Assembly (NCBI RefSeq): GCF_008151785.1
Contig: NZ_CP036523.1
Location: 62,001-126,000, forward strand
DNA: 64,000 bases
Origin: Peptacetobacter hiranonis
GTDB lineage: Bacteria; Bacillota; Clostridia; Peptostreptococcales; Peptostreptococcaceae
Reading direction: 5' to 3'
A program made the translations under genes and the position numbers. Under the pieces are notes generated by a model. That model was not told the origin of the DNA, did no database searches, and saw only the letters and a program-made list of their open reading frames with translations. Shown here piece after piece: positions 1-34,373 of the stretch (the stretch's first letter is position 1; the number at the start of each line of letters is the position of its first letter).

Positions 1-722
1 AAAGTTTCAAGCTTTAGTAGATTTTTAGATTTATCCGATGATTTGGTTTTCATCATCTTATCATAATGTCTACTAGCTTTTTTCTGAAGTCTTTTAAGTT
101 TCTTCTTTTCCTTTTTAGTACTAACTCTATTAAAATTCATACCATTTGAACAAGTCATCAATGTCTTTATCCCCATATCAATTCCAATCGGCTCAGTTTT
201 TTGTAGATTATTTTCTTCATCTTCTAAGATACAACTAATACTCAACCAAAACTTAACCCCATCAAATGATACTTTTGGATTTAAATATTTACAATTTCTA
301 GGAATTCTATTCTCTGCCATATCTACCCAACCTATTGATTCAATTCTAACTTTATAATCATCAAATTTGATTTTATAAACATCGTTATAAAAACTTTTTT
401 TTGATTTCTTTTTACTCTTAAATCGTGGATGTTTAGCTTTTTTATTAAAGAAATTTTTATATGCTTTGCATAAATCTTTTATAGCTTGTTTTGTAACGTT
501 GTTGTTTATTTCGTTAAGCCACTTAAATTCTTCTTTTTTCTTCAACTGTGTAAATTCTTTCCTTAAATCCATATCAGAAATAAATTTTCCACCTTTTTCA
601 TAATTTTCCTTTTCTCTAGCTAATGCCCAGTTATATGCAAATCTAACACATCCAAAGCTTTTAAACATCAATTCCTTTTGTTCTTTGTTAGGAAATATTT
701 GAACTTTAAATCCTTTTTCCAT
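1..722 (-). CDS. tnpB: TnpB-family RNA-guided nuclease / IS605-type accessory protein, C-terminus cut by window edge
   Basis: About 240 codons are readable without a stop, from the ATG at 722 to the window edge. The start follows a good ribosome binding site (AAAGGCGGTGATGAC before ATG). The N-terminal part has the TnpB/OrfB look: a RFAYNWAL-like stretch near residues 27-34, a lysine-rich HPRFKSKK segment near 140, and the RuvC-I motif GIDMGIKTL with the catalytic Asp at residue 182. A basic helical linker follows. The RuvC-II, zinc finger and RuvC-III parts would lie outside the window, so activity cannot be judged. TnpB proteins are guide-RNA-directed nucleases that help IS605-type elements persist. 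In an IStron this gene rides inside the intron. Confidence 0.9.
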   Translation of the reverse strand, partial: MEKGFKVQIFPNKEQKELMFKSFGCVRFAYNWALAREKENYEKGGKFISDMDLRKEFTQLKKKEEFKWLNEINNNVTKQAIKDLCKAYKNFFNKKAKHPRFKSKKKSKKSFYNDVYKIKFDDYKVRIESIGWVDMAENRIPRNCKYLNPKVSFDGVKFWLSISCILEDEENNLQKTEPIGIDMGIKTLMTCSNGMNFNRVSTKKEKKKLKRLQKKASRHYDKMMKTKSSDKSKNLLKLET

Positions 723-849
723 GTCATCACCGCCTTTCTAGTAATATTTCTTTCTACTATTATCATAGACGGCAAATATTCATTTTATACAAGTTTTTAA
801 AAAAATTTTATAATTTTTTATAAGTAATTTATTCAGTTTTTATAGATTT

Positions 850-1290
850 TATTATTTACCATACAACGCTACTTGTATGATGCCATTTCGCTCACGCTAA
901 TGACCTCGACCTTTCGGATACGAGCGTAGACTATTTCTTCACCTACAGCATCACCTGTTTAGGGCAACCCATTTCCACTACCAATTGCTTGTAGTGTACT
1001 CCCTTGCGGGATAGTCGTTTGACCTTCCTATTTCTAGGCTTGGCGACCAAAGATCCATTGCCACGATACTTAGGCTCTCACCATATATCATCTCAACTGT
1101 TGTTTCTGAATTTCTTCACATTCATAGAAGTTTCTTGCTATCTTCTATTGTAGTCGTTGAGCTTTAGGAATTACTGGTTTTAAAGTTGTGTCCTATGTAG
1201 ATTTCTCTACATACGAGGCTTAGTTAAAATAATCTATAAAGTATTTTAGACTTTTTATACATATTTATAAATTTATCTTAACTCTTAGTT
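850..1290 (-). ncRNA. Group I intron-like ribozyme (5' part of the IStron)
   Basis: Read on the minus strand, the stretch contains the group IA2-like block AACGACTATCCC (near 1019-1008) followed by a GGGAGTA return strand, and AAATAGTC (near 936-929), which can pair with GACTA as P7. The first bases after the exon can form a P1-like structure: exon AGGU (1294-1291) with intron GCCU (1219-1216), giving a U-G pair at the splice site. An 11-bp helix between 1283-1273 and 1232-1222 extends it. An 8-bp hairpin with a GAAA loop follows (1213-1194). These helices were found by eye. The downstream limit is approximate. Confidence 0.78.
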
Positions 1291-1350
1291 ACCTTCTTCT
1301 AATGGTACAAATTCTTCTTTTTTGTTTGTTAATGTATTGTATACTTTCAT
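1291..1350 (-). CDS. cysS: Cysteinyl-tRNA synthetase, 5' exon (first 20 codons)
   Basis: The ATG at 1350 follows AAAGAGGTGATAAGG. The 20 codons read MKVYNTLTNKKEEFVPLEEG, the usual N-terminus of bacterial CysRS just before the conserved GKVxMYVCGPTVY segment. The next two codons would be Asn and stop, so without splicing only a 21-residue peptide is made. The gene lies 30 bp after gltX on the same strand and probably shares its transcript. CysRS is essential, so either the intron is spliced out or another cysS exists. The rest of the gene should lie past position 1, after the 3' end of the IStron. Confidence 0.85.
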
Positions 1351-3980: not shown

Positions 3981-5204
3981 TTACAATCTATCTTCATACA
4001 TTATTGAAAGTTCTCCATAAATATATCCCCAGTTTCTAATAGGCATACTCCATTTTTTGCTTATTTTTTCAACTGATAGATATAGTGATTTTTCTAAGGA
4101 AATCTTGTTTGGAAAAACAGTTCTTTTTTTATTTATTTTTCTAAGCTGCGAATTTACACTTTCAATGGCATTTGTAGTATAAATTACCTTTCTAGTTTCT
4201 GGTGAAAATTTAAATATCGGTATAATTGAATCCCAGTTACTAAACCAAGATTTCATAGAATTTGGATATTTTTCATTCCATTTTTCTGAAGTACGTTCTA
4301 AATTAGCTAGAGCCTGTTCTTCATTAATGGCATGATATATTGTTTTTAAATCATTAGCAAATTCCTTTCTATCTTTGTATGATACATATTTTAATGTATT
4401 TCTAACTTGATGAACAATACATCTTTGATATTCAGTATTTGGAAAAGCGGAGCTTATCGCTTCTTTTATTCCTGATAGTCCATCAGCACAAACGATTAAA
4501 ATATCTCTTACACCTCTATTTTTTAATTCATTTAGCACAGAAAACCAATACTTAGAGCTTTCAGTATCTCCAATATACAATCCTAGAATTTCTTTGTATC
4601 CTTCGGAACTTATACCAAGAATTACATAGACAGCTTTTTTCTTAACAGAACCATTTTCTTTAACAGAGAAATGGATAGCATCTATATATACAACAGGATA
4701 TACACTTTCAAGAGGTCTATATTTCCATTCTTCGATTTTAGGTATTATTTTATCAGTTACATCTGAAATCATTCCTTCAGATAGTTCAAATCCATAAATA
4801 TCCTCTATTTGAGAAGTTATATCTCTATTACTCATGCCTAAAGCATACATATTTATTATTTTTTGCTCTATTTCAGAAACATCCTTTTGTCTTTTTTTGA
4901 CAATTTGAGGTTCAAAAGAGGAATCTCTATCTTGAGGAACATCAATTTCGTATTCTCCCATTCCAGATCTAACTCTTTTTGTTTTATATCCATTTCTTGA
5001 ATTGGTATTTTCACCACGTTCATATTTTTCATATCCAAGATGCTCATTCATTTCAGATTCAAGCATCTCTTGAATAGTATCACCTAAAAGATCTTTAAGT
5101 GCATCCTGAATGTCTTGAGCGGTTTTAATTTCATATGTTTTAATTAGCTCCGCTATTATATTTTTCTTTTCTGGATTTAATGGTTCTCTTTTCTTTCTGC
5201 CCAT
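3981..5204 (-). CDS. IS256-family transposase
   Basis: A 407-residue mutator-type DDE transposase of normal length that appears intact. Catalytic residues fit the family: Asp175 in YIDAIHF, Asp241 in CADGLSG and Glu348 in NAIESVN. The C/H signature RCIVHQVRNT is at 261-270. The N-terminal part carries the typical SEMNEHLGYEKYERG block. The start ATG follows GGAGGCGATTTTTT. It is the only protein of the element. Its upstream flank carries the right inverted end at 5238-5263. Confidence 0.96.
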   Translation of the reverse strand: MGRKKREPLNPEKKNIIAELIKTYEIKTAQDIQDALKDLLGDTIQEMLESEMNEHLGYEKYERGENTNSRNGYKTKRVRSGMGEYEIDVPQDRDSSFEPQIVKKRQKDVSEIEQKIINMYALGMSNRDITSQIEDIYGFELSEGMISDVTDKIIPKIEEWKYRPLESVYPVVYIDAIHFSVKENGSVKKKAVYVILGISSEGYKEILGLYIGDTESSKYWFSVLNELKNRGVRDILIVCADGLSGIKEAISSAFPNTEYQRCIVHQVRNTLKYVSYKDRKEFANDLKTIYHAINEEQALANLERTSEKWNEKYPNSMKSWFSNWDSIIPIFKFSPETRKVIYTTNAIESVNSQLRKINKKRTVFPNKISLEKSLYLSVEKISKKWSMPIRNWGYIYGELSIMYEDRL

Positions 5205-30313: not shown

Positions 30314-30389
30314 TGGTGGGGTTAACAGGGCTCGAACCTGTGACCCCCTGCTTGTAAGGCAGATGCTCTCCCAGCTGAGCTATAACCCC
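30314..30389 (-). tRNA. tRNA-Val(TAC), array position 45
   Basis: Anticodon TAC, CCA encoded. Last gene of the array; identical in body to the copies at 31965 and 33950. Confidence 0.96.
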
Positions 30390-30396
30390 ATAAAAA

Positions 30397-30470
30397 TGCG
30401 CCCAGAGGGACTCGAACCCGCAACCTCCTGATTCGTAGTCAGGCACTCTATCCGGTTGAGCTATGAGCGC
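30397..30470 (-). tRNA. tRNA-Arg(ACG)
   Basis: Anticodon ACG, which would be read after A-to-I editing by TadA; CCA not encoded. Only copy in the window and outside the duplicated module. Confidence 0.95.
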
Positions 30471-30499
30471 ATATTAATATTATATTATCAAATAGTTAT

Positions 30500-30573
30500 T
30501 GGAGGCGACATCCAGATTCGAACTGGAGATCAAGGAGTTGCAGTCCATTGCCTTACCGCTTGGCTATGTCGCC
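30500..30573 (-). tRNA. tRNA-Cys(GCA), module 1
   Basis: Anticodon GCA, discriminator T, CCA encoded. Copy of the gene at 32405. Confidence 0.95.
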
Positions 30574-30579
30574 GAAAAG

Positions 30580-30652
30580 TGATCTATCCGCGATTCGAAC
30601 GCGGGACACCTTGATTAAAAGTCAAGTGCTCTACCGACTGAGCTAATAGACC
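30580..30652 (-). tRNA. tRNA-Lys(TTT), module 1
   Basis: Anticodon TTT, CCA not encoded. Same body as 31216, which does encode CCA. Confidence 0.95.
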
Positions 30653-30663
30653 ATATTATTTTT

Positions 30664-30741
<78 letters not shown>

Positions 30742-30746
30742 ACAAA

Positions 30747-30823
30747 TGGTGGACCATCAGGGACTCGAACCCCAGACCTACCGGTTATGAGCCGGGCGCT
30801 CTAACCAACTGAGCTAATGGTCC
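30747..30823 (-). tRNA. tRNA with CAT anticodon, probably Ile2, module 1
   Basis: Anticodon CAT, CCA encoded. The GGACCAT acceptor and D arm resemble the tRNA-Ile2 whose C34 is changed to lysidine; elongator Met cannot be excluded by eye. Copies at 32742 and 60954. Confidence 0.85.
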
Positions 30824-30832
30824 TCATTATCT

Positions 30833-30909
30833 TGGTAGCGGTAACAGGAGTCGAACCTGTGACCTTTCGGGTATGAACCGAACGCTCTAGCCAACTAAGC
30901 TATACCGCC
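30833..30909 (-). tRNA. tRNA-Met(CAT), elongator, module 1
   Basis: Anticodon CAT, acceptor GGCGGTA as in elongator tRNA-Met of Firmicutes, CCA encoded. Confidence 0.92.
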
Positions 30910-30917
30910 ACACTATA

Positions 30918-30993
30918 TGGTGCCCAGAGGCGGAATCGAACCACCGACACGGGGATTTTCAGTCCCCTGCTCTACCGACTGAGCTATCTGGGC
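30918..30993 (-). tRNA. tRNA-Phe(GAA), module 1
   Basis: Anticodon GAA, CCA encoded. Copy at 32913. Confidence 0.96.
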
Positions 30994-31022
30994 ATATTTT
31001 ATCAAAAAATAAAAATAAAGTA

Positions 31023-31106
31023 TGGTGCGGATGAAGGGAGTCGAACCCCCACGCCGTAGGCGCTAGATCCTAAGTCTAGTGCGTCTGCCAATTCCGCCAC
31101 ATCCGC
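31023..31106 (-). tRNA. tRNA-Leu(TAG), module 1, extra copy
   Basis: Class II tRNA with a variable arm, anticodon TAG, CCA encoded. This copy between Phe and Ser has no counterpart in module 2. Confidence 0.96.
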
Positions 31107-31113
31107 ATATACT

Positions 31114-31202
<89 letters not shown>

Positions 31203-31215
31203 ATGTATAAAAAAA

Positions 31216-31291
31216 TGGTGATCTATCCGCGATTCGAACGCGGGACACCTTGATTAAAAGTCAAGTGCTCTACCGACTGAGCTAATAGACC
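31216..31291 (-). tRNA. tRNA-Lys(TTT), module 1, second copy
   Basis: Anticodon TTT, CCA encoded. At the matching place module 2 has Lys(CTT). Confidence 0.96.
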
Positions 31292-31305
31292 ACAAAAAAT
31301 AAAAA

Positions 31306-31380
31306 TGGCTGGGGATATAGGATTCGAACCTATGCATACATGAGTCAGAGTCATGTGCCTTACCGCTTGGCGAATCCCCA
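31306..31380 (-). tRNA. tRNA-Gln(CTG)
   Basis: Anticodon CTG, acceptor TGGGGAT, CCA encoded. Module 2 has Gln(TTG) here. Confidence 0.94.
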
Positions 31381-31408
31381 ACATTGGTAAATATTAAGTT
31401 ATGTGTTT

Positions 31409-31485
<77 letters not shown>

Positions 31486-31507
31486 ACAAAACTGAATTAA
31501 TAAAATA

Positions 31508-31591
31508 TGGTGCGGATGAAGGGAGTCGAACCCCCACGCCGTAGGCGCTAGATCCTAAGTCTAGTGCGTCTGCCAATTCCGCCACATCCGC
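31508..31591 (-). tRNA. tRNA-Leu(TAG), module 1
   Basis: Class II tRNA, anticodon TAG, CCA encoded. Copy at 33488. Confidence 0.96.
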
Positions 31592-31604
31592 GTATATTTT
31601 ATTT

Positions 31605-31689
31605 TGGTGGAGGATGGTGGATTCGAACCACCGAAAGCGATGCTAACAGATTTACAGTCTGCCCCCTTTGGCCACTCGGGAAATCCTCC
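31605..31689 (-). tRNA. tRNA-Tyr(GTA), module 1
   Basis: Class II tRNA, anticodon GTA, CCA encoded. Confidence 0.96.
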
Positions 31690-31694
31690 ATATT

Positions 31695-31770
31695 TGGAGC
31701 TGGTGATAGGACTCGAACCTACAACCTGCTGATTACAAGTCAGCTGCTCTACCAATTGAGCCACACCAGC
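31695..31770 (-). tRNA. tRNA-Thr(TGT), module 1
   Basis: Anticodon TGT, discriminator T, CCA encoded. Confidence 0.96.
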
Positions 31771-31774
31771 ATAT

Positions 31775-31850
31775 TGGCGGGAATAACAGGACTCGAACCT
31801 GTGACCCAATGATTAACAGTCATTTGCTCTACCAACTGAGCCATATTCCC
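31775..31850 (-). tRNA. tRNA-Asn(GTT), module 1
   Basis: Anticodon GTT, discriminator G, CCA encoded. Confidence 0.95.
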
Positions 31851-31879
31851 ACATTTTTAGTATTTATTTTTTTATAAAG

Positions 31880-31956
31880 TGGCGACTCGGATGGGGCTCG
31901 AACCCACGACCTCCAGCGTGACAGGCTGGCATTCTAACCAACTGAACTACCGAGCC
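31880..31956 (-). tRNA. tRNA-Asp(GTC), module 1
   Basis: Anticodon GTC, discriminator G, CCA encoded. The T-loop region has GGGTTCGAGCCCC here and GGGTTCGAACCCC in the copy at 33865. Confidence 0.96.
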
Positions 31957-31964
31957 ACTTTATT

Positions 31965-32040
31965 TGGTGGGGTTAACAGGGCTCGAACCTGTGACCCCCT
32001 GCTTGTAAGGCAGATGCTCTCCCAGCTGAGCTATAACCCC
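31965..32040 (-). tRNA. tRNA-Val(TAC), module 1
   Basis: Anticodon TAC, CCA encoded. Confidence 0.96.
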
Positions 32041-32044
32041 ATTT

Positions 32045-32118
32045 TGGAGCGGGTGAAGGGGATCGAACCCTCACAGCTGGCTTGGAAGGCCAGAACTCTA
32101 CCATTGAGCTACACCCGC
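32045..32118 (-). tRNA. tRNA-Gly(TCC), module 1
   Basis: Anticodon TCC, discriminator T, CCA encoded. Confidence 0.96.
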
Positions 32119-32127
32119 ATATTTAGT

Positions 32128-32202
32128 TGGTGACCCGTAGGAGAATCGAACTCCTGTTACCACCGTGAAAGGGTGGTGTCTTAACCGCTTGACCAACGGG
32201 CC
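32128..32202 (-). tRNA. tRNA-Glu(TTC), module 1
   Basis: Anticodon TTC, CCA encoded. Confidence 0.96.
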
Positions 32203-32213
32203 ATATTTTATTT

Positions 32214-32289
<76 letters not shown>

Positions 32290-32301
32290 ATATTATATGA
32301 G

Positions 32302-32388
32302 TGCCGAAGACCGGAATCGAACCGGTACGGGAGGATAAGTCCCGCAGGATTTTAAGTCCTGTGCGTCTGCCAGTTCCGCCACTTCGGC
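32302..32388 (-). tRNA. tRNA-Leu(TAA), module 1
   Basis: Class II tRNA, anticodon TAA, CCA not encoded. First gene of module 1 in the direction of transcription. Confidence 0.95.
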
Positions 32389-32404
32389 TTAAATCATATT
32401 TAGT

Positions 32405-32478
32405 TGGAGGCGACATCCAGATTCGAACTGGAGATCAAGGAGTTGCAGTCCATTGCCTTACCGCTTGGCTATGTCGCC
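32405..32478 (-). tRNA. tRNA-Cys(GCA), module 2
   Basis: Anticodon GCA, CCA encoded. Last gene of module 2 in the direction of transcription. Confidence 0.95.
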
Positions 32479-32484
32479 GAAAAG

Positions 32485-32557
32485 TGATCTATCCGCGATT
32501 CGAACGCGGGACACCTTGATTAAAAGTCAAGTGCTCTACCGACTGAGCTAATAGACC
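32485..32557 (-). tRNA. tRNA-Lys(TTT), module 2
   Basis: Anticodon TTT, CCA not encoded, as in its copy at 30580. Confidence 0.95.
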
Positions 32558-32568
32558 ATATTATTTTT

Positions 32569-32646
<78 letters not shown>

Positions 32647-32651
32647 ACAAA

Positions 32652-32728
32652 TGGTCGAGGTGAAGGGACTCGAACCCCCGGCCCCATGGTCCCAAACCAC
32701 GTGCGCTACCAAACTGCGCTACACCTCG
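32652..32728 (-). tRNA. tRNA-Pro(TGG)
   Basis: Anticodon TGG, discriminator A, CCA encoded. Only in module 2. It would read the CCA specifier proposed for the proS T-box. Confidence 0.95.
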
Positions 32729-32741
32729 AAAAATATTTACT

Positions 32742-32818
32742 TGGTGGACCATCAGGGACTCGAACCCCAGACCTACCGGTTATGAGCCGGGCGCTCTAAC
32801 CAACTGAGCTAATGGTCC
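32742..32818 (-). tRNA. tRNA with CAT anticodon, probably Ile2, module 2
   Basis: Same sequence as the gene at 30747; CCA encoded. Confidence 0.85.
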
Positions 32819-32827
32819 TCATTATCT

Positions 32828-32904
32828 TGGTAGCGGTAACAGGAGTCGAACCTGTGACCTTTCGGGTATGAACCGAACGCTCTAGCCAACTAAGCTATAC
32901 CGCC
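32828..32904 (-). tRNA. tRNA-Met(CAT), elongator, module 2
   Basis: Same sequence as the gene at 30833; CCA encoded. Confidence 0.92.
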
Positions 32905-32912
32905 ACACTATA

Positions 32913-32988
32913 TGGTGCCCAGAGGCGGAATCGAACCACCGACACGGGGATTTTCAGTCCCCTGCTCTACCGACTGAGCTATCTGGGC
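32913..32988 (-). tRNA. tRNA-Phe(GAA), module 2
   Basis: Anticodon GAA, CCA encoded. Confidence 0.96.
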
Positions 32989-32991
32989 ATT

Positions 32992-33080
<89 letters not shown>

Positions 33081-33093
33081 ATATTTATAAAAG

Positions 33094-33166
33094 TGATTCA
33101 TCTGGGACTCGAACCCAGGACTCCCTGATTAAGAGTCAGGTGCTCTACCAACTGAGCTAATGAACC
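33094..33166 (-). tRNA. tRNA-Lys(CTT)
   Basis: Anticodon CTT, CCA not encoded. It takes the place of Lys(TTT) in module 1. Confidence 0.95.
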
Positions 33167-33206
33167 AGATTAATCATCATTTTTTAATTTATTTATAACA
33201 TTATAT

Positions 33207-33282
33207 TGGCTGGGGATGCAGGACTCGAACCTACGAATGTAGCAGTCAAAGTGCTATGCCTTACCGACTTGGCGAATCCCCA
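33207..33282 (-). tRNA. tRNA-Gln(TTG)
   Basis: Anticodon TTG, discriminator G, CCA encoded. It takes the place of Gln(CTG) in module 1. Confidence 0.95.
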
Positions 33283-33285
33283 ACA

Positions 33286-33362
<77 letters not shown>

Positions 33363-33378
33363 ACATCAACAATGCTTT

Positions 33379-33453
33379 TGGAGCGGGAAACGAGATTCGA
33401 ACTCGCGACTTCGACCTTGGCAAGGTCGCGCTCTACCGCTGAACTATTCCCGC
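33379..33453 (-). tRNA. tRNA-Gly(GCC)
   Basis: Anticodon GCC, discriminator T, CCA encoded. Only in module 2. Confidence 0.96.
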
Positions 33454-33487
33454 ACATTATATTATATTTTTTGATATACACTTTACA

Positions 33488-33571
33488 TGGTGCGGATGAA
33501 GGGAGTCGAACCCCCACGCCGTAGGCGCTAGATCCTAAGTCTAGTGCGTCTGCCAATTCCGCCACATCCGC
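33488..33571 (-). tRNA. tRNA-Leu(TAG), module 2
   Basis: Anticodon TAG, CCA encoded. Confidence 0.96.
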
Positions 33572-33589
33572 GCATATTTTATTTCATTT

Positions 33590-33674
33590 TGGTGGAGGAT
33601 GGTGGATTCGAACCACCGAAAGCGATGCTAACAGATTTACAGTCTGCCCCCTTTGGCCACTCGGGAAATCCTCC
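33590..33674 (-). tRNA. tRNA-Tyr(GTA), module 2
   Basis: Anticodon GTA, CCA encoded. Confidence 0.96.
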
Positions 33675-33679
33675 ATATT

Positions 33680-33755
33680 TGGAGCTGGTGATAGGACTCG
33701 AACCTACAACCTGCTGATTACAAGTCAGCTGCTCTACCAATTGAGCCACACCAGC
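33680..33755 (-). tRNA. tRNA-Thr(TGT), module 2
   Basis: Anticodon TGT, CCA encoded. Confidence 0.96.
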
Positions 33756-33759
33756 ATAT

Positions 33760-33835
33760 TGGCGGGAATAACAGGACTCGAACCTGTGACCCAATGATTA
33801 ACAGTCATTTGCTCTACCAACTGAGCCATATTCCC
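33760..33835 (-). tRNA. tRNA-Asn(GTT), module 2
   Basis: Anticodon GTT, CCA encoded. Confidence 0.95.
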
Positions 33836-33864
33836 ACATTTTTAGTATTTATTTTTTTATAAAG

Positions 33865-33941
33865 TGGCGACTCGGATGGGGTTCGAACCCACGACCTCCA
33901 GCGTGACAGGCTGGCATTCTAACCAACTGAACTACCGAGCC
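33865..33941 (-). tRNA. tRNA-Asp(GTC), module 2
   Basis: Anticodon GTC, CCA encoded; one base differs from the copy at 31880 in the T arm. Confidence 0.96.
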
Positions 33942-33949
33942 ACTTTATT

Positions 33950-34025
33950 TGGTGGGGTTAACAGGGCTCGAACCTGTGACCCCCTGCTTGTAAGGCAGAT
34001 GCTCTCCCAGCTGAGCTATAACCCC
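33950..34025 (-). tRNA. tRNA-Val(TAC), module 2
   Basis: Anticodon TAC, CCA encoded. Confidence 0.96.
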
Positions 34026-34029
34026 ATTT

Positions 34030-34103
34030 TGGAGCGGGTGAAGGGGATCGAACCCTCACAGCTGGCTTGGAAGGCCAGAACTCTACCATTGAGCTACACC
34101 CGC
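34030..34103 (-). tRNA. tRNA-Gly(TCC), module 2
   Basis: Anticodon TCC, CCA encoded. Confidence 0.96.
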
Positions 34104-34112
34104 ATATTTAGT

Positions 34113-34187
34113 TGGTGACCCGTAGGAGAATCGAACTCCTGTTACCACCGTGAAAGGGTGGTGTCTTAACCGCTTGACCAACGGGCC
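34113..34187 (-). tRNA. tRNA-Glu(TTC), module 2
   Basis: Anticodon TTC, CCA encoded. Confidence 0.96.
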
Positions 34188-34198
34188 ATATTTTATTT

Positions 34199-34274
<76 letters not shown>

Positions 34275-34286
34275 ATATTATTTGAG

Positions 34287-34373
34287 TGCCGAAGACCGGA
34301 ATCGAACCGGTACGGGAGGATAAGTCCCGCAGGATTTTAAGTCCTGTGCGTCTGCCAGTTCCGCCACTTCGGC
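34287..34373 (-). tRNA. tRNA-Leu(TAA), module 2
   Basis: Anticodon TAA, CCA not encoded. First gene after the array promoter. Confidence 0.95.

Follow-up and report, generated by a model that had tools for sequence, protein, structure and literature searches.

A group B IStron in the only cysteinyl-tRNA synthetase gene of Peptacetobacter hiranonis, predicted to be removed from the mRNA by splicing

Fusions of a group I intron with a tnpB element are known as IStrons, and they fall into at least two groups. CdISt1 of Clostridioides difficile, a group A member, is like the element described here in that a group IA2 intron is fused to a tnpB element. Group A differs, however, in its TTGAT-type targets, TCAG end, exon ends with U and IS200/IS605 ends, whereas the present element follows GG and ends in CGG (comparison with the group descriptions in PMC4227781). 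The closest described systems are the group B (IS607-type) IStrons, namely BcISt1 of Bacillus cereus, SrISt1 and LsISt1; in the sections of PMC4227781 that define the group, these insert after GG, end in CGG, have a U as the first base outside the exon and carry a long AU-rich repeat. That paper counts 118 intragenic sites, and the hosts it names include transporters, a dehydrogenase and a helicase, among others. An IStron in a synthetase gene is not reported in the available text of PMC4853749 and PMC3984707, and Supplementary Table S1 of PMC4227781 may list a host gene that is essential. The group I introns of recA and nrdE are similar as self-splicing introns in bacterial protein genes, but they are not described as tnpB transposon chimeras in the available text on them (PMC3984707). 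For IS607 TnpBs, a guide RNA derived from RAGATH-18 has been described, in which 65 nt of 3' flank precede the spacer, together with TAMs that are AG-rich (PMC11061315).

The element found in cysS of P. hiranonis bears the marks of a group B IStron. Set against the group B account in PMC4227781, it is alike in its GG-ending target and CGG 3' end, in a first base U that lies outside the exon (the empty sites of congeners lack this U), in an IA2-like intron with P7.1, P7.2 and P9.x, and in an immediate in-frame stop; ORF A is absent from the cysS copy, and its loss is common in the group. The AU-rich repeat around the ORF has 47 pairs, compared with the 15-34 pairs (>80% AU) given there for group B, and the group B table in the same source has no entry from the Peptostreptococcales, the order of the present host. 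The likeness to ISFba1 lies in the RAGATH-18 RNA and the AG-rich left flank, with 58 nt to the element end here compared with 65 nt; the differences are that the cysS element sits inside a group I intron, that its flank is GAAGG rather than AGGAG or GAGGG, and that its nuclease is a predicted one (compared with the ISFba1 data in PMC11061315). The host gene also sets the element apart from group B, as cysS encodes an essential aminoacyl-tRNA synthetase, and its splicing is here predicted from sequence. The kind of element is already known; what is new is the host gene, an essential single-copy aminoacyl-tRNA synthetase gene.

The locus lies at the left edge of the window, by which is meant the whole analysed stretch of 64,000 nucleotides (G000:C1:62001-126000) of a genome that consists of one contig (2.52 Mb, completeness 99.87%). 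This edge cuts the locus, so that the remainder of the element and of cysS is found to the left of it, within the 9-kb region L005 (G000:C1:57001-66000; L005 position = window position + 5000). The order on the minus strand is gltX, cysS exon 1, the element, cysS exon 2 and a mini-III ribonuclease-like ORF (gltX and the last ORF were named by inspection). The features are as follows, in window positions unless stated otherwise.

G000:C1:61438-63291 (L005 6291-4438), minus strand: IStron, whole, 1,854 bp, bounded by GAAGAAGG on its 5' side and AAAGGTTAAAATG (AAAGGTT...) on its 3' side
1..1291, minus strand: part of the IStron in the window, continuing leftwards to G000:C1:61438 (L005 4438)
1292..1350, minus strand: cysS exon 1, 59 nt, ATG to GG of codon 20; in the congener at L066 the same stretch, with one change, is followed directly by AAAGG
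L005 4437-3102 (outside the window), minus strand: cysS exon 2
862..1221, minus strand: group I intron core, internal guide sequence to P9.2, class IA2-like with P7.1 and P7.2 (HMM, pair counts and a sub-threshold RF00028 match)
1216..1219, minus strand: internal guide sequence GCCU, pairing with AGG of the exon and U, the first element base, at window 1291 (inspection)
1275..1283, minus strand: P1 upper stem, 5' strand, AGUUAAGAU (minimum-energy fold)
1222..1230, minus strand: P1 upper stem, 3' strand, AUUUUAACU (minimum-energy fold)
798..853, minus strand: AU-rich inverted repeat, 5' arm; the 3' arm is at L005 4498-4444
3..722, minus strand: tnpB, N-terminal 240 codons; the complete gene (370 aa) is at L005 5722-4610

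The anatomy of the insertion can be read directly. The cysS ATG is at window 1350-1348, and from there leftwards on the minus strand the frame reads MKVYNTLTNKKEEFVPLEEGN and then stops, just as had been predicted for a frame ending two codons past a normal N-terminus; the element supplies the N codon and also, in the last G codon, the third base. The original prediction was right that cysS is interrupted, and its placing of the interruption after codon 20 needs correction: the insertion is inside codon 20, in phase 2, after GG. With the element omitted, a CysRS of 464 aa with a single terminal stop is obtained, reading LEEGKVKMYVCGPT. The exact empty site is present in two congeners (L064 and L066), where GAAGAAGGAAAGGTAAAAATG corresponds to GAAGAAGG joined directly to AAAGG, and at the right junction (...GTAACGG/AAAGG, the slash marking the element end) there is no target duplication. 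The remainder of cysS, which was expected to the left of the window, was found in the genome as 441 aa from MYVCGPT (TIGR00435, 589.7 bits, cut-off 340). The other elements of the prediction, an IStron with a group I intron and a tnpB gene that interrupts an essential host gene in frame, all hold up.

The cysS intron is a covarying ribozyme fold, even though the proposed check with a group I covariance model came close to speaking against it. At its gathering score, RF00028 gave no match at the cysS element in either the window or the whole genome, while passing its cut-off at four other places of the same genome. Over the 9 kb of L005 nothing was found at E<=10; on 701 bases only, the model matched over its full length with 18.9 bits (E 0.023), short of the gathering score of 50. 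RF00028 seems to be a weak model for this intron branch, because nine loci with homologous introns were silent as well (nothing at E<=1) and four more distant introns of the genome pass. An HMM made from 25 relatives, with the cysS copy left out, finds the cysS intron with E 3.2e-87 and 284.6 bits. The left-one-out scores of the other 25 introns are 222-310 bits, and since the cysS intron falls inside this range it shows no sign of decay.

Covariation was assessed in an alignment of 26 related introns, for 81 pairs that follow the group I scheme of helices and its names (P2-P9, including the P3/P7 pseudoknot). Left out were L045 (truncated), the near-duplicates L037, L038, L040, L042, L043 and L046, the partial or unchosen L098, L102 and L103, and other copies of included sequences (L006, L012-L015, L096, L106 and L109). 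Paired cells amounted to 83.9% across the 26 introns, compared with 68.4% after shuffling and 37-43% when the columns were slid by 1-3. Both-sided changes were seen in 55 of the 81 pairs (44.0 in shuffles), and the covariation score was 0.461 vs 0.196 in shuffles; further pair types, one measure among five, showed no excess (104 vs 113.3 in shuffles, with 498/500 shuffles as high). All cells were paired (100%) in P3, P6 and P7, with P7 invariant in 26/26, and the values for P7.1 and P7.2 were 99% and 96.7%. P8 and P9 were paired in 74-75% of cells (P9 75%) and the weak helices P5a, P5b, P9.1 and P9.2 in 43-69% (P9.1 56%, P9.2 43%). Because the cysS copy served as the template for the structure, the 81/81 pairs found in that copy are there by construction.

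At the 5' splice site, a pairing between an exon end AGGU and GCCU at 1219-1216 had been proposed. GCCU is found there, but AGGU is not the exon end, as the U is the first base of the element and the exon ends in ...AAGG. For BcISt1, RT-PCR has shown that splicing occurs after the G and that the U is missing from the ligated exons (PMC4227781). Because the U belongs to the intron in group B, splicing is expected after the G at window 1292 and not after AGGU. Indeed, joining GG to the exon that follows ...ACGG keeps the cysS frame and gives the sequence of the congeners; with AGGU as exon end and an intron ending in G, the joins, worked by hand, are out of frame or one codon short. By inspection, pairing between the guide sequence and the exon end with its following U is possible in 9/9 copies with a known boundary, as AGGU with GCCU in the cysS copy, L033, L109 (=L034), L106 (=L044) and L035, as CAGU with ACUG in L092, L093 and L124, and as CAGU with GCUG in L045; target and guide sequence have therefore changed together. 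In the CAG-target sister lineage (L092, L093, L124 and L045), a U-A rather than a U-G pair is expected at the splice site in three of the four.

As in group B, an internal loop separates the 3' strand of the P1 upper stem from the U-G pair. Four pairs of the upper stem, AGUU with AACU, recur in L033 and read AGCU with AGCU in L034 and L044, one pair having changed on both sides (inspection). When the 5' 101 nt were folded alone, the upper stem formed and P1 was absent, exon UACC pairing with GGUA instead; 13/200 shuffles folded at least as well (z -1.61). A seven-base match between GUUAAAA of exon 2 and UUUUAAC upstream of the guide sequence was considered as a P10 candidate and treated as chance, because this UUUUAAC is also the partner of GUUAAGAU in the upper stem of P1. 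Across the element ends compared, no support was found for a P9.0 pairing that involves the 3' end.

The intron part shares 81-82% identity with eight genomes of one genus, and at E<=1e-15 intron matches were found in 30/393 genomes of the order, 29 of the 30 in the same family. Nine copies have a known left end, of which eight are in ORFs, all in sense and none in antisense, and one (L035) is outside an ORF. This orientation sample is small and non-exhaustive, consisting of loci read among the results of the family and order searches with fragments such as L110 and L111 excluded; both flanks were read for the cysS copy, L033, L109, L106, L092 and L093, and the upstream flank only for L045 and L124. 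The other host ORFs encode a radical SAM protein (its two halves match the profile at positions 2-32 and 35-72, both of them below the Pfam cut-off), an M16 peptidase, a 4Fe-4S protein, an Ig-like surface protein and a Clp_N protein; those of L092 and L124 have no match over the Pfam cut-off. A search of viral contigs with the left junction gave 0 matches; two viral contigs (L143 and L144) carry a relative of the TnpB. Among records having any match, the element was covered to 80% at one place in 0/78 plasmid and 0/140 phage records, and the matches listed for phage records include a few short ones of high identity. At E<=1e-5, the intron-core HMM had no match in 16 loci of TnpB relatives from named genomes (L017-L032). 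Several of these are from Selenomonas ruminantium, the species of the published group B IStron SrISt1 (PMC4227781), and the HMM may therefore miss some group B introns.

Several observations were made alongside this survey. In the eight genomes of one genus (L036-L043, from G007, G009, G005, G011, G004, G010, G006 and G008), a homologous intron, e.g. L039 1500-2190, precedes a permease-like ORF, which was read in L039 and L041 and identified by inspection, and no tnpB ORF separates the two. Its exon end is AGGGGGU, which is SD-like and pairable with GCCCC, and the 5' flanks are alike in all eight genomes; this intron may have been domesticated, placing a ribosome-binding site by splicing. The P. 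hiranonis genome itself holds five more group I introns (L001, L002, L003, L004 and L016), four of them over the RF00028 cut-off, whose ends are unlike those of the cysS element. L002, L003, L004 and L016 are located between ORFs and are followed by long ORFs that are TnpB-like by inspection; L001 may be intragenic and seems to read out of an ORF end. Transposase-like ORFs, also named by inspection, flank the gltX-cysS region (mutator-type, IS256-like, at window 3981-5204; IS3-like at L005 1254-2576). Elsewhere, the 37 kb of window 24776-61258 contain three operons for rRNA as well as a large cluster of tRNA genes (30317-34373), and tRNA blocks in this region occur twice with equal scores.

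CysRS is essential, and an essential single-copy gene cannot be lost. In the main rival to splicing, the intron is dispensable: translation of exon 2 would begin at an ATG of its own, the Met of MYVCGPT, behind an SD-like GGAAAGG, and the resulting CysRS would be 23 residues shorter. The right junction does read GGAAAGGTTAAAATG, and the 441-aa ORF from that ATG is complete and carries the TIGR00435 match given above. The N-terminus that would be lost is, however, kept in 30/30 relatives with the locus read (25 via a motif filter and five that the filter had dropped, which were read separately). Among 71 family genomes, 70 have a cysS match at E<=1e-60, and in 69 of these 70 it starts at model position 1-2, P. 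hiranonis alone differing with a start at 15. Strings similar to GGAAAGG also occur in many relatives as Gly-Lys-Val codons and so point to no special adaptation, and the ribozyme is without signs of decay. Translation from the internal start is therefore judged unlikely.

A second alternative, which we regard as very improbable, is that the insertion is recent, splicing-dead or mis-assembled, the sequenced clone being unrepresentative. The comparison includes one genome per species and P. hiranonis is represented by a single genome, which limits any judgement of fixation and assembly error, and the insertion is absent from both congeners (L064 and L066). Against this stand the single contig, the exact IS607-type junctions on both sides, an exon 2 without frameshifts, an intron core that scores like its relatives and the fact that the gene could not be lost. 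In exon 2, constraint is evident from 28 nonsynonymous and 80 synonymous differences from genome G033 (dN 0.027, dS 0.395, dN/dS ~0.07); exon 1 has one nonsynonymous and no synonymous difference in 19 codons, too few for a test of constraint. That Cys-tRNA is made otherwise, by a second CysRS or the SepRS route, leaving cysS dispensable, is hardly credible, as nothing was found in its support, the TIGR00435 search of the genome gave one cysS (597.8 bits, with five other matches of 27-38 bits in other long ORFs) and the SepRS model scored 49.8 bits vs a cut-off of 380.65, with matches in 13/14 control genomes as well and only two of these over the cut-off. A second intact cysS combined with a missing continuation to the left had been named as evidence that would count against the IStron reading; the genome has one cysS only, and its continuation is present.

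The tnpB gene of the element is complete. Its product has three domains over the Pfam cut-off (PF07282, PF12323 and PF01385) and matches NF040570, the model for RNA-guided TnpB, over profile positions 2-388 of 389 with 297.3 bits (cut-off 100), and is hence a predicted nuclease. The nearest solved chain is 8iaz_A (E 1.3e-62), which we take to be ISFba1 TnpB. The IS607 TnpB model NF038280 scored 197.1 bits, below its cut-off of 350, and the IS200 TnpB model scored higher, 269.7 bits, below its cut-off of 425; since neither is over its cut-off, kinship with IS607 rests on the ends, the RAGATH-18 RNA and L124. No tnpA or IS607-type ORF A was found among the ORFs of the cysS element, and a complete IS607 transposase (NF033518, 207 bits, cut-off 110) comes after the related intron of L124, which is from another family of the order. 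The RAGATH-18 scaffold (RF03064) is at L005 4564-4496 with 57.2 bits (E 1.7e-9, gathering cut-off 44.9), leaving 58 nt to the element end. The AU-rich repeat around the ORF includes 42 A-U among its 47 pairs (-40.7 kcal/mol), and no intrinsic-terminator-like site was found in L005 4300-6500. By analogy, the first 18 bases of exon 2 would be the spacer, and these occur exactly once in the genome; 19 places lie within three mismatches (one further place with two, the rest with three), compared with 20 for a reversed control pattern. The left flank is GAAGG vs AACGG at the right end in 4/4 GG-type copies with both ends read, a difference that would let TnpB spare its own right junction.

In all, the cysS element is very likely a group B IStron without tnpA, lying in sense after GG in codon 20 of the sole cysS; it would be spliced out and could also be a source of guide RNA. 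From its sequence, we infer that the cysS mRNA is spliced. Since the element sits in the only gene for an enzyme that every cell needs, growth of the host would probably depend on self-splicing of the intron. In the unspliced RNA, a ribosome would read one codon past the interrupted codon and stop at UAA, bases 5-7 of the element. The intron would fold, the AU-rich repeat bringing the distant 3' end near, and splicing at ...GAAGAAGG/UAAC...GUAACGG/AAAGGUU... would yield wild-type cysS mRNA. Unspliced transcripts may instead be cut to give the TnpB guide RNA, with cysS exon 2 as the putative spacer. TnpB would then cut an IStron-free cysS allele, in which the TAM-like ...GAAGG is followed by AAAGGTTAAAATG, and the element would be kept because the empty allele is the target. 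A conflict between transposon-encoded introns and guide RNAs has reportedly been noted in earlier work. Here guide RNA and 3' splice site would both draw on the element's 3' end, with its RAGATH-18 and repeat arm, so that splicing and guide-RNA formation would compete in an essential mRNA. More tentatively, the IStron could be an addiction and control device, in which insert-free cysS is cut, loss is impossible, and the levels of TnpB and CysRS are tied through the shared 3' end; we consider this doubtful.

Because exon 2 alone makes a good cysS ORF from its ATG, an annotation could show merely a slightly short cysS. Should splicing prove real, this bacterium would rely on a transposon-borne ribozyme each time a cell divides, and growth would be a measure of the tension between splicing of the IStron and formation of the TnpB guide RNA. 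It would likewise illustrate why a mobile element might be impossible to remove from an essential gene, the empty allele being what its own nuclease targets, and the cysS IStron, with a nuclease that is probably aimed at the empty allele, would provide a clean natural test bed.
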